26,433 nucleotides of DNA. Origin: a virus. The translations under genes were made by a program, and so were the position numbers. This document shows, one piece after another, positions 15,111 through 20,261 of the stretch; within the stretch, counting starts at the first letter, position 1; each line of letters starts with the position of its first letter. Where the stretch lies: the IMG/VR virus record IMGVR_UViG_3300032401_000072, positions 1-26,433 of that record; one strand, written 5' to 3'. A model generated the notes under the pieces. The model was not told where the DNA came from and searched no databases. It saw nothing but the letters and a program-made list of their open reading frames with translations.

Positions 15111-17519
15111 TTAAAATGTTGCAAGTACTCGAGCACTACCTGGAGCTGGTGATGTTGCTTCGGTAATCTTAGCAACCTTCATTCTTTCCATATCCTTATA
15201 CATCTGGAGAAGTTCTTCCATTGTTTTTCCGGTCGATGTTGATGTAGTATTGAGTCGTTCTAGAAGAACTATCATCGCTGCGGTTGGGTCACTCTTACCA
15301 GTGGCTGATGTTGCTGCTGCAGCGGCTGTACCAGGTTTGATTCCTTCTCCAGGTACTCTTTCAGTTAGTGGTGGTTGCCCTCTCTGGGCTCTCCTTGCGT
15401 TAATATCAGCAAGAGTTATACTTGCAGTTGCTTCAGGTGCCTCACTAGCTAACATTTCTGATAACTTATCTGCCCCACCCGACTTTTTCATGACATAATC
15501 CGTTGCAAAGTAGGCAGCAGCTCCAGTTGCAGCAAGTACGGTGGCGGTACCAAGAAGTCCTATACCTGCGGCTCCAGCGGCGGCAGTACCTGCACCTCCA
15601 CCAGCAGCCGCACCTGTAGTAGCTACTCCCTCCAAAATACCACCAGCAACTGAGACGCCTGCCCTTTTTAGTAATGTGGTTGCTAAAGCACCAAGTCCCT
15701 TTTCAAATATGGTACCAAGAAACTTTGTTGCTATAAGTCCACCTGCACCAATCAGAATTCCTGCCAATCCATTACCCTTCAGCCAACCAAAAATTGCACC
15801 AAGTGTAGCACCCATCTCCCCAATTCTATTGAATATACCTTTAGTGGTACCATCAATATTACTGAGGCTTTGTACAGACTGCTCACTCTTCTTTCCTCCT
15901 CCTGATATAGTTGCTTCTGTTGCGACATCCTCAAAGAATTTTCGGTCTGCTGTTGGCATTTTTTCAAGAGCCTTATCTAGAAACACTTGATTCTGGTCTG
16001 CTGCAACATCACCTCGTTTACTCGCTTCGGCGATTTGTTCCTTGATTGCCCTTCCAGCGTTTGCTTGCAGTTCAATAAAGCGCGCTTTATCTGTGTCAGA
16101 CATTGCACCTGGTGCTTTTCGTCCAAGTCGTTGTATTTCGGCAACTTGTCCGGGTGGTAACCCAGCCCTAGCTGCAATTAGAGCCAACATTTGAGCAGAC
16201 TTCATTCTTGAAACAGGCGTCGTTTGTGCACGCATTTTCTCGAAATTCACAGCAAGCTCACGGGCTTTCTGAGATGAAAGACCAATCATTACAAATTCCT
16301 CTTGTCTTGCTTTTATGCTAGCCAGCACCTGTTCTCGGTCTTTTTCTGTTACCTTTGACATTGCTTCCCGGAACTCTGAATCTTCAAGTAGTTGTTCATC
16401 AAGTTCAATAATTCGTTCTGGCAACATATTGGTAACATGTGAGAGACGTTCGACTCCCTTCAGATAACTTGAGGATTCTGTTTTTAATTCACCAACTGTT
16501 TTTGTGTGTGATGATGTTTGTTGCTGTAATTTAAAAGCGGCCGCTGCCAGTTTTCCACTAAGGATTGGATCACTACCTGCCATTTTGAATGTCTGTTCTT
16601 GAAGATCATTCAGTGTCATTGCATACGCTTCAGCACCTTCCTTAACAGCAAGAACAGAATCTTTTTGTGTCTGCATTATTTCCTGCAGATCCTTAACTTG
16701 TATTAGAAGTCTTGCTGATGCTTCATAAAATGGCTGCACACCAGATTTTTGGTAGAACTTAGCTGATTCAACAAGCTGTTCACCAGCTTTTCTGAATCCA
16801 TCAATCAGCGTCTTTGTGAACAATGCTGACATGCCTTTTGCTATCTTTGCAGCACCGCCACCCTTTTCAAATGAATCTGCTATTGATCCTGGTAAACCAC
16901 CTGCTGATTTCATTCCTTCTAGCATACCGTCATGCACAGCTGTCGCTGCGGACTTCATATCGGTGGCAATGTCATCCATGGTCTTACGGATTTTCTTTCC
17001 TTGCGTTTCAAGGCCAGCACTTTGACTTTGAAAAGCCTGAGAAAGTCGAATTACTTGGTCTTCAGTTAGTTTTCCGCCCTTTTCTAGCTGTGTAAATATT
17101 ACTTCAAGATCCTCTCCAACATGAATTACATCTCTTAGATTAGCCCCAACATCCTGGTATGACTTTACAAGTTGTCTTAGCATTTGTTCTTGCTGACCGA
17201 CGTTTGTGTCAACCTCTTTAAATGAATCTATAAGTATGTCTGTTTGACCTGCAAGAGCATTCAAAGCTTGCGTGTACTTAGCCGTACCACGAGCTGTCTT
17301 TTCAAATTTGTCACCAGTTAACTGTAGAGAGTCAGCGAGTTCGTCGAGATGTTTGTTGATCTTGTTTGTTTTGAACGAGTTGGCTGTTGCCGATAGGTGA
17401 TGCTGAATAGCACCAATAGTCGTATCTGCATCATGAAGGGTATCAGTCAAAAGTCTTGTATTTGATCTAATCTCGCGCGACAGCGTTGCCAATTCAGTTG
17501 CTGATATTGTATTTGCCAT
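15111..17519 (-). CDS. Tape-measure-like virion protein
   Basis: The protein has 802 residues. The N-terminal 230 residues are helical and charged, with coiled-coil character (RSNTRLLTDTLHDADTT; TQALNALAGQTDILIDSFKEV). A helical middle follows. Around residues 570-680 are Gly/Ala-rich hydrophobic segments (LAGILIGAGGLIATKFLG; AAAGAAGIGLLGTATVLAA) that could cross a membrane, then a Pro/Ala/Thr-rich C-terminus. This layout is usual for tail tape-measure proteins, which set tail length and are ejected with the DNA; T4 gp29 (590) is the analogue. The divergent neighbour is the gp26/gp51-type tail-assembly pair, as expected for tape-measure genes. It has a perfect late octamer 23 bases before the ATG. 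The sequence itself carries no diagnostic motif, so another ejected virion protein is possible. Confidence 0.65.
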   Translation of the reverse strand: MANTISATELATLSREIRSNTRLLTDTLHDADTTIGAIQHHLSATANSFKTNKINKHLDELADSLQLTGDKFEKTARGTAKYTQALNALAGQTDILIDSFKEVDTNVGQQEQMLRQLVKSYQDVGANLRDVIHVGEDLEVIFTQLEKGGKLTEDQVIRLSQAFQSQSAGLETQGKKIRKTMDDIATDMKSAATAVHDGMLEGMKSAGGLPGSIADSFEKGGGAAKIAKGMSALFTKTLIDGFRKAGEQLVESAKFYQKSGVQPFYEASARLLIQVKDLQEIMQTQKDSVLAVKEGAEAYAMTLNDLQEQTFKMAGSDPILSGKLAAAAFKLQQQTSSHTKTVGELKTESSSYLKGVERLSHVTNMLPERIIELDEQLLEDSEFREAMSKVTEKDREQVLASIKARQEEFVMIGLSSQKARELAVNFEKMRAQTTPVSRMKSAQMLALIAARAGLPPGQVAEIQRLGRKAPGAMSDTDKARFIELQANAGRAIKEQIAEASKRGDVAADQNQVFLDKALEKMPTADRKFFEDVATEATISGGGKKSEQSVQSLSNIDGTTKGIFNRIGEMGATLGAIFGWLKGNGLAGILIGAGGLIATKFLGTIFEKGLGALATTLLKRAGVSVAGGILEGVATTGAAAGGGAGTAAAGAAGIGLLGTATVLAATGAAAYFATDYVMKKSGGADKLSEMLASEAPEATASITLADINARRAQRGQPPLTERVPGEGIKPGTAAAAATSATGKSDPTAAMIVLLERLNTTSTSTGKTMEELLQMYKDMERMKVAKITEATSPAPGSARVLATF

Positions 17520-17635: not shown

Positions 17636-18430
17636 ATGGAAACAACAGTAAAATCAAATCCACTTCTAGAAAACCTTCGACTTCCCGGTGAAACAGTTCG
17701 ACTCCCGTCTGGTGGGATGTTTTATAAGAATGGAGAACTAGCATCACATGTAAACAACGGTGAGATTCATGTGTATCCAATGAACACATATGAAGAGATT
17801 CTGATGAAAAGTCCAGATAAACTTCTCAATGGTGATGCGGTTCAGGAAGTGTTTACAAGATGTATTCCCGATATCCTAAAACCTTTAGATTTATTTGCAC
17901 GTGATGTTGACTATTTGATTCTCGTACTTAGACGAGTAACATATGGAAATACTGTTGATATTCCATATACCCATAACTGTGATAGTATTTCTCACACCTA
18001 TGTAGTAGATATTTCGCCGTTTATTCAACAGGCGAAAATTATTGATCCTACGACACTATCAACAAACTATCAATTAACACTTCCTAATCAACAAGTGGTT
18101 GAGATAATTCCTGTTAGGTTTGGTCAAACAATTAAGATGTTGCAGGAAGGAAGTGTGCAAAGAATACAGGATCTAACTGATGATGATATTAAGAATCAGT
18201 TCTATGATTCTTTAGTTAGTGTAATATCTGCTGTAGATGGCTGCACAGATCCAAAAATGATCCGTGAGTGGATTGAACAAATTAGTGCAGGTTGGTCCCG
18301 TCAAATCCAGACTGCCATGGAAAGGAATAGTAACTGGGGTCCTGAAACAGTGTCGACTGTAATATGTAAAACTTGTCAAAAACCACTAGAACTCGATTTA
18401 TCGTTAAACCCGATAACTTTTTTCTCCTAA
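17636..18430 (+). CDS. Baseplate hub / tail assembly protein (T4 gp26-like)
   Basis: The protein has 264 residues from ATG 17636. I prefer this start because TGAGGA lies 4 bases before it; an ATG 21 bases earlier has no site. Near the N-terminus is LPSGGMFYKNGEL (residues 24-36) and then the MNTYEEILMKSPDKLLNGDAV stretch (42-62, read in parts), a pattern typical of the T4 baseplate protein family that contains gp26. Near the C-terminus, CKTCQKPLEL looks like half of a zinc knuckle, followed by LNPITFFS and the stop. In T4, gp26 takes part in assembling the baseplate hub. The final Phe-Phe codons form a slippery heptamer followed by a hairpin, and the -1 frame continues as a gp51-like domain. 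The gene diverges from the tape-measure-like gene. Confidence 0.82.
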   Translation: METTVKSNPLLENLRLPGETVRLPSGGMFYKNGELASHVNNGEIHVYPMNTYEEILMKSPDKLLNGDAVQEVFTRCIPDILKPLDLFARDVDYLILVLRRVTYGNTVDIPYTHNCDSISHTYVVDISPFIQQAKIIDPTTLSTNYQLTLPNQQVVEIIPVRFGQTIKMLQEGSVQRIQDLTDDDIKNQFYDSLVSVISAVDGCTDPKMIREWIEQISAGWSRQIQTAMERNSNWGPETVSTVICKTCQKPLELDLSLNPITFFS

Positions 18431-18458
18431 CTCTCAGGTATCGGGCTCCGTCTGAGAG
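18418..18458 (+). promoter_or_regulatory. Programmed -1 ribosomal frameshift signal
   Basis: In the gp26 frame the codons ACT TTT TTC contain the slippery heptamer T-TTT-TTC (18418-18424). Six bases later, after the gp26 stop TAA, CTCTCAG (18431-18437) pairs perfectly with CTGAGAG (18452-18458). The 14-base loop can form an inner CGG/CCG stem. Slippery site, 6-base spacer and stem-loop match the layout of known -1 signals in phage tail genes. The -1 frame is open for another 76 codons. Confidence 0.82.
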
Positions 18459-18654
18459 AGCTGCCTATATTGCCCGGCTACAAGCTGAAGCTGGTATCTT
18501 GATCGATAGTGTAATATCTCTCGTGTACTTTATGCGTGGTGCAATATCATACCACGAAATGATGACATTATCTAGAAAGGAACGAGATCGGATTTCAGAC
18601 TTTATTAAGGAAAGATTGGAACAAGAAAAGGATAAGCCTAATCCAATATACTAA
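18424..18654 (+). CDS. gp51-like C-terminal extension made by -1 frameshift from gp26
   Basis: This is the -1 frame entered at the slippery site, adding 76 residues to the first 263 of gp26 (fusion about 339 residues). It is helical and contains RAPSERAAYIARLQAEAG, VISLVYFMRGAISYHEMM and RKERDRISDFIKERLEQE. A small domain of this type (hydrophobic 'LVY', then Gly/aromatic, then basic helix) follows gp26 in relatives of T4, where it is called gp51 or hub assembly catalyst; this match is from memory. Only a TTG codon (18373), without ribosome site, could start it independently; its first ATG lies in the middle of the domain. So frameshifting is the best explanation for its expression. The stop overlaps that of the convergent helicase gene by three bases. 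Confidence 0.75.
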   Translation, partial: LLTLRYRAPSERAAYIARLQAEAGILIDSVISLVYFMRGAISYHEMMTLSRKERDRISDFIKERLEQEKDKPNPIY

Positions 18655-20237
18655 ACTTCAGTGTATGCTTGCTTCCACCATTTTGGAATCATGTGACTGG
18701 CTTTACTATATAAATAGCTCCAACTTGAATCAAGAATGTACACGTGCCCCCAATCTTCTTTTGATCTGACAATACGTCCACCACCCTGAATCATATCAAC
18801 AAGTGCTTGTCTTTGATACCATTCACCTGATAGTTCCATTCGTGCTTTAATCCATTGGTCCCCAAGGAATCCATATGGTACCTTGACGAAGATTGCGAAT
18901 CTTGCGAGATCGTTGACAAGATCGAGACCTTCTGTTATACTTGGTGAGATTAGCACTCCTGGTTTACTTGAGTGTTTGAAGTCGTCGATAACATCTCGAC
19001 GGTCTCTACGTTGTTCTGATGGGTTATGTTCAAAGATCACATGAGGAACAGAGTTTGATAGTTCATCTATTAACCATTGTGCAATTGCGAAACTTCCTGT
19101 ATGAATAATTCCTGAAACGTCGTTATGTAATTCAAGTAGTCCCTTAATCGTTCCAATCATCGCCTTCCTGTTTGCTTGATTCTGTGGATCTTTCCAGTTG
19201 ACATTCATTCTCATAGATGGCATGAAGTAAACAGGTCGGTTCTCAACAGGAAATTCCGATGGTAGTGAAAGGAACGCTGCTTCATCTTGTGATATTCCAA
19301 GATCGTTACAGAATCCCTTGTAATTGAGGATTGTTGAAGACATGAACAGAAATTTATCAGCCATTGGTTCAAGAATCTTGTAGAAGTTTGTTGAAGCAAA
19401 GAGGTACTTAAACTTGATCATTGTTTTATCGTGAACAAGTGTGTATATTTGTTTAACATCGTCAATTCGCTCATTCATCACTGTTCGTACAAGTTTTTCA
19501 TGTTCTTGAAGTGATGCAAGTTCCTTGAGTTTGTTGAGTTCAACAGATGTAGTTTGTCTACTTGAAGGTGAGTCAATAATATACGAACATTCATCAACAA
19601 GTTCTGTAAGTTTAATCTCAACGGCTGGGTGATATACATCGTTAAGCCATTTGTGTGTGTGATCTAGAGTTTCGAGAACTTTCCACTTAACACCCATTCG
19701 TTCTGCACGCTTTGCCGTAATCTGTAGTGCGTTTAGTTCTGTTAACTGCTGTTCTGTATTATGACATTCATCAAGAATCATTAGTGGACGTCTTTTGAAC
19801 ATATTCGTGTAGTTGAAGCACAAAAGAGCCATCGTATAATTGAGAACAACGTGAGGAACGTTCTTTGCCCTCCCCTTTGCCATCACAAACGGACACGATT
19901 CACATTCGGGCTTTATTAGACTGCCAATATCACAAGTTGTATTGCGTTGTGAGCACGTGTAGTTGTTCTTTCCGTAGAAAGCAAACACACGTTCTTCGGG
20001 AAATGTATTTTCGTATTGTTCTTGTAGAACTTTTTGGGGAGTTAGAATGAACGACTTTCTGAAGTCGTCGGACTGAATGGAGTTACCATATGTCACACCT
20101 AGGTGGCTTTTGCCACCACCAACAGGTATCTCAAGAATCAGGTATCTTGCTGTTTGTTTTTCTAGCCACTCAAGTGCACGAAGTTGTGTTTCACGTGGAG
20201 GACTATTTGAATGAGACCAATGTTGTAAAATGTCCAT
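18651..20237 (-). CDS. DinG/XPD-like superfamily 2 DNA helicase with iron-sulfur cluster
   Basis: The protein has 528 residues from ATG 20237; a GTG two codons earlier is also possible. Motif I is VGGGKS at 39-44 and motif II is DECH at 156-159. Four cysteines between them (Cys95, Cys102, Cys112, Cys115) match the 4Fe-4S domain of XPD/DinG helicases. SSTILN near 300, ITEGLDL near 425 and MIQGGGRIVRS near 480 are later helicase motifs. Such enzymes unwind DNA 5' to 3' and act on damaged, branched or RNA-containing structures; here a role in phage DNA replication or recombination is likely. It has a consensus host-type promoter, so it is probably an early gene, unlike the neighbouring late genes. 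It converges with gp26/gp51 with overlapping stop codons. Confidence 0.88.
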   Translation of the reverse strand: MDILQHWSHSNSPPRETQLRALEWLEKQTARYLILEIPVGGGKSHLGVTYGNSIQSDDFRKSFILTPQKVLQEQYENTFPEERVFAFYGKNNYTCSQRNTTCDIGSLIKPECESCPFVMAKGRAKNVPHVVLNYTMALLCFNYTNMFKRRPLMILDECHNTEQQLTELNALQITAKRAERMGVKWKVLETLDHTHKWLNDVYHPAVEIKLTELVDECSYIIDSPSSRQTTSVELNKLKELASLQEHEKLVRTVMNERIDDVKQIYTLVHDKTMIKFKYLFASTNFYKILEPMADKFLFMSSTILNYKGFCNDLGISQDEAAFLSLPSEFPVENRPVYFMPSMRMNVNWKDPQNQANRKAMIGTIKGLLELHNDVSGIIHTGSFAIAQWLIDELSNSVPHVIFEHNPSEQRRDRRDVIDDFKHSSKPGVLISPSITEGLDLVNDLARFAIFVKVPYGFLGDQWIKARMELSGEWYQRQALVDMIQGGGRIVRSKEDWGHVYILDSSWSYLYSKASHMIPKWWKQAYTEV

Positions 20238-20261
20238 ATTCACTCTTAGATTTAATTAAAC

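Follow-up and report, generated by a model that had tools for sequence, protein, structure and literature searches.

A gp26-like gene and its −1 reading frame

The analysed window is a 26,433-nt stretch of DNA from a large T4-related phage (IMG/VR record IMGVR_UViG_3300032401_000072, which contains no sequence beyond it). On its plus strand lies a gp26-like gene (17636–18430) encoding a 264-aa protein, a predicted short tail assembly chaperone (TAC-N) read in the zero frame. By codons, the 3′ end of the ORF reads CCG ATA ACT TTT TTC TCC TAA, with the heptamer T-TTT-TTC (18418–18424, plus strand) in phase with the gp26 frame. A 6-nt spacer, TCCTAA (18425–18430, plus strand), holds the zero-frame TAA stop (18428–18430) and is followed by a possible stimulatory stem-loop (18431–18458, plus strand). 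Its arms, CTCTCAG (18431–18437) and CTGAGAG (18452–18458), form a perfect 7-bp stem with inner CGG/CCG pairs, and ViennaRNA assigns −12.4 kcal/mol to 36 nt of this region. All of these elements had been described in a sequence-only reading of the window, and we confirmed them to the base.

The −1 frame of the plus strand is open for 76 codons (18424–18651) and ends at a stop codon at 18652–18654. We assign it to a candidate C-terminal chaperone domain (TAC-C), the predicted equivalent of the gp51 C terminus. The frame had been said to have neither an early ATG nor a ribosome site, and this holds: its first ATG is codon 37 (18532), the first start codon of any kind 3′ of the heptamer is a TTG at codon 26, and the sole start codon around the junction, TTG 18373, lacks a 4-nt Shine–Dalgarno match. 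In-phase TTTTTTC occurs at only 3 of 7,594 codon pairs in the main ORFs of the window, and the 73 codons open past the stop have p ~0.008 from base composition. The window sequence by itself is thus suggestive of a frameshift; the decisive step is conservation.

Two minus-strand genes flank the locus. A DEAD/Helicase_C_2 helicase ORF (PHROG_2488, 18651–20243) is convergent with the −1 ORF and overlaps it by 4 bases (18651–18654). On the other side, an 802-aa gene (15111–17519) is divergent from the gp26-like gene, and a large divergent ORF adjoins the gp26-like gene in 47/49 and 9/9 jumbo-type relatives; that of RaK2 carries a note of similarity to a tape measure protein. The tape measure gene normally lies just downstream of a G/GT-type chaperone gene, and the sequence-only reading had placed the pair next to a tape-measure-like gene. 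A large conserved ORF is indeed adjacent, but it lies on the opposite strand, and the 802-aa protein gave no convincing family match in Pfam or PHROG and no tblastn match in the phage collection. Its possible identity as a tape measure protein is a guess.

The gp26-like protein matches PF12322 above the gathering cut-off (E = 6e-8) and PHROG_150, 'baseplate hub' (E = 3.5e-12). Among BFVD structures, its AlphaFold2 model (pLDDT 89) fits best to 'Baseplate hub assembly protein, T4-like' (E = 4e-19), all strong matches being predicted structures. Looking for a resemblance to solved TAC folds such as HK97 gp13, we obtained no PDB match for the model at E ≤ 0.001, and PDB sequence searches returned nothing useful.

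Conservation of the heptamer and the downstream frame

We collected relatives from isolated phages and IMG/VR loci using gp26 protein queries alone, blind to the heptamer. This yielded 132 non-redundant gp26 genes, and stricter clustering left the 36 most divergent. T-TTT-TTC/T lies in phase near the gp26 3′ end in 129 of the 132 genes. The genes share ancestry, so that p-values assuming independence overstate the evidence; the strictly clustered sets still agree (36/36 and 24/24). The distance from heptamer to stop varies from 9 to 69 nt across the 132 relatives, and therefore the heptamer, not the stop, is the conserved element.

Every isolated jumbo phage that we examined has a gp26 ending in an in-phase T-TTT-TTC or T-TTT-TTT followed by a −1 ORF (XacN1, RAS14, Phosso, PA5oct, Deifobo, RaK2, Atu_ph07, PBECO4, Vibrio 2.275, GAP32 and XbC2). 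The site is also present in the smaller phages S-RIM8, Aeromonas 65.2, SRB7757, Otagovirus Astolliot and Vibrio D482. Four loci (L043, L044, L056 and L099) are natural mutants of the slippery site, with T-TTC-TTC in place of T-TTT-TTC and an intact −1 ORF; the −1 domains of L056 and L099 differ with a pN/pS of 0.17. SenALZ1 (L208) and Vibrio K445 (L209) carry the C-terminal domain in the −1 frame behind a gp26 end reading ATT TTC ATT TAA or CTT TTC AAG TAA, with no tandem heptamer; a shift there would call for a single-tRNA slip or some other mechanism.

The −1 frame remains open for 51–75 codons past the gp26 stop in all 128 untruncated loci, whereas in each alternative frame a single locus of the 128 attains 50 open codons. 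Sequence past the stop is under purifying selection (median pN/pS of 0.30, 0.15 and 0.20 in three groups). The −1 domain is predicted to be helical (pLDDT 88). Pfam holds no family for it, and a fold search found no match, which may only reflect how rarely the domain is annotated.

Downstream RNA structure is enriched as a class. Across relatives, the 60 nt 3′ of the heptamer fold more stably than shuffled sequence (mean z −1.5), whereas controls taken from elsewhere in these genes average −0.3 (p = 2e-6). In the window itself the local folding energy is only marginal (z about −1.7 for 36 nt and −0.6 for 60 nt), although a perfect 7-bp stem at 5–9 nt arose in no more than 38 of 5,000 shuffles. 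Relatives do not preserve the window's stem at the level of individual bases, and it is therefore excluded from the family-level evidence.

Cyanophage-type gp26 genes (L116–L195) carry a GAG-GGW (GGAGGG-like) stretch ~9–11 nt before T-TTT-TTC. At the corresponding Glu codon 46/61 genes use GAG, whose share at their other Glu codons is 29% (p 1e-13). This stretch looks like a dnaX-type Shine–Dalgarno stimulator, judged by its sequence; upstream of the window's own heptamer we saw no GAG-GGW-like stretch.

We consider a programmed −1 ribosomal frameshift at T-TTT-TTC very probable in the window, on the strength of the comparative sequence evidence. None of the computable checks set out in the sequence-only reading refuted it. 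An independent −1 gene, translated by termination–reinitiation at or near the gp26 stop through ATGA or TAATG coupling, or from a start of its own, would fit the many records that annotate a separate small ORF. Such overlaps do occur (ATGA in 15/132 relatives and TAATG in 7/132, with PBECO4, Phosso, Atu_ph07 and L030 among the examples). However, the window's own start codons come late, 52/132 relatives have no ATG, GTG or TTG around the junction, and a start codon with a 4-nt Shine–Dalgarno match, which would mark a properly initiated separate gene, is the exception (13/132). Reinitiation also leaves the conservation of T-TTT-TTC unexplained. It may contribute to output in a few phages, but fails as a general mechanism, and we regard it as very unlikely to account for the window.

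T runs can cause polymerase slippage, and the −1 ORF persists in a few relatives that have no tandem heptamer, so transcriptional slippage on the T run, or the slip of a single tRNA, might take the place of tandem −1 tRNA slippage. The codon choice at the site speaks against this. The P-site codon is TTT in 129/132 relatives, but the A-site codon is TTC in 121/132, keeping the run to six T; elsewhere the same genes use TTT for 66% of Phe codons. The enriched downstream structure is likewise what ribosomal shifting leads one to expect, and we give these alternatives as slight a chance as reinitiation.

The sequence-only reading had also proposed that the Phe-Phe near the gp26 end owes its conservation to being the slippery site, and codon choice supports this well. 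Were Phe-Phe kept for protein reasons and TTT TTC ordinary codon use, the 67 other Phe-Phe pairs of the same genes should be comparable, but they include no T-TTT-TTC and a single T-TTT-TTT. The base before the two heptamer codons is T in 132/132 genes, compared with 77 expected from synonymous usage, although the amino acid at that codon varies among S, N, A, H, T, D, Y, R and G. In T4 gp26 the Phe-Phe persists although the site is not slippery, and the residues may thus also serve the protein; yet T4-type phages, which need no shift, write the pair as GAR TTC TTT, and a chance heptamer can be practically discounted. The equally improbable reading that a base missing from the T homopolymer has split one long gene takes its plausibility from the run of six T and the metagenomic origin of the record, but comparison with the relatives refutes it: a split at this T run is shared by ~130 non-redundant genomes of many different samples and by finished isolates, the stops differ in codon and distance, and no relative with an in-frame fusion was seen there.

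Relation to T4 gp26 and gp51

T4 gp26 and T4 gp51 both match PF12322 (E = 9e-64 and 4e-52, respectively), which makes them homologues and gp51 an extended gp26. PHROG_634 ('baseplate hub assembly catalyst') spans residues 147–246 of T4 gp51 as well as the small ORF 3′ of gp26 in cyanophage S-RIM8. Profile comparison of T4-like and cyanophage −1 domains with the T4 gp51 C terminus gave 96% (E 2.6e-9), that of jumbo-phage with cyanophage −1 domains gave 70% over a 33-residue segment, and that of all −1 domains together with T4 gp51 gave 87%, with reversed controls below 1%. Compared directly, the −1 domain of the window's clade matches the T4 gp51 C terminus weakly (15–23%), and the link runs via the cyanophages.

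A complete gp51 gene in the −1 frame, the literal form of the original proposal, is rejected, as T4 gp51 comprises a full gp26 homologue plus the extension. The proposal of a G/GT-type pair stands in amended form: the homologies support gp26 as the predicted short tail assembly chaperone and gp26 fused to the −1 domain as the probable equivalent of gp51, with the −1 frame alone probably corresponding to the gp51 C-terminal extension. That such a pair acts in tail assembly as chaperones is likely, by homology and by analogy with lambda. Cyanophage records such as L018 (4232–4369) annotate a gp51 'baseplate hub assembly catalyst' from an internal start, and this annotation probably captures only part of the −1 domain.

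In Tequatrovirus-type gp26, the Phe-Phe is kept as GAG/GAA TTC TTT, which is not slippery, and in Ac42 and 50AhydR13PP it is lost. All of these phages have a separate full-length gp51. The T4-type pattern fits a loss of frameshifting after gene duplication and fusion, the direction being read from the sequence pattern. In a joint reading that we judge about as likely to be wrong as right, the T-TTT-TTC shift would be ancestral for the gp26/gp51 pair in jumbo phages, Kyanoviridae, Otagovirus and Aeromonas 65-like phages. T4 and its nearest relatives would have duplicated and fused the gene and then lost the slippery codons, and Kuttervirus, Vibrio K445 and the T-TTC-TTC clade would have drifted to a non-tandem or single-tRNA slip.

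Proposed mechanism and known chaperone systems

We infer the slippage itself, its frequency and the chaperone function as follows. Most ribosomes would terminate at the TAA at 18428–18430 and release the 264-aa short chaperone (TAC-N, gp26). In a minority, the two tRNA-Phe in the P and A sites on TTT TTC would slip back by one base to TTT TTT. These ribosomes would go on to read the 76 codons of the −1 frame, and their product, TAC-NC, would be a 339-aa counterpart of T4 gp51. Lambda gpG/gpGT serves as the model for their role: the short and long proteins would cover the tape measure protein and bring in the subunits of the tail tube.

The lambda pair belongs to another protein family and uses another heptamer, GGGAAAG; the divergent transcription of the large gene beside the window's pair is a further difference. 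The P2 gpE/gpE+E′ pair resembles the proposed one as a −1 frameshifted chaperone pair of a contractile-tail phage, and we know of no sequence relation between the two. Later papers attribute the programmed −1 frameshift of lambda gpG/gpGT to Levin 1993 and to Xu, Hendrix & Duda 2004 (as cited in PMC12859696 and PMC10885494) and that of P2 to Christie 2002 (as cited in PMC12859696). In Vandenendeviridae and Andersonviridae, PMC12846349 places the TAC frameshift at a GTTTTT motif. This is a comparative case for a −1 shift at a T run ending TAC-N in myoviruses, although of another lineage.

The closest known system is the gp26/gp51 pair of T4-like phages, which is of the same family (PF12322/PHROG_150), has short and long forms and carries a C-terminal extension homologous to PHROG_634. 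T4 differs in encoding the two forms in separate genes, whereas the window would make both from one gene by frameshifting. Vladimirov, Gautam and Davidson reportedly identified the tail assembly chaperones of T4-like phages in Virology in 2022 (566:9–15, doi 10.1016/j.virol.2021.11.003). According to PMC10885494, some T4-like phages dispense with frameshifting and have, beside a short TAC gene, a longer one for the fusion, and PMC12846349 describes poly-T −1 signals as already known from the TAC-N genes of this phage group; both papers cite Vladimirov et al. 2022. Because of these statements, the frameshifted chaperone pair is of an already known kind. The idea of such a pair, which the sequence-only reading expected to change the view of gp51 if general, is not new for the T4 superfamily: T4-like chaperones were reportedly assigned in 2022, and T4 itself uses two genes. 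In the literature that we searched, in which papers citing it stand for Vladimirov et al. 2022, we found no description for jumbo phages, which is weak evidence of absence. The finding was largely anticipated in 2022; what we add are the jumbo-phage members, the measured depth of heptamer conservation, the codon-level argument and the loss of the site in T4.

Dozens of jumbo phage genomes have next to gp26 a small ORF that is misannotated or lacks annotation; the proposed frameshift explains it, and provides an annotation rule, namely to look for T-TTT-TTC at the gp26 end and continue in the −1 frame. It ties gp51, the 'baseplate hub assembly catalyst', to the lambda-style scheme of tail assembly chaperones. 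The phages predicted to frameshift and the two-gene T4 form a natural contrast for the role of the short-to-long chaperone ratio in tail assembly.
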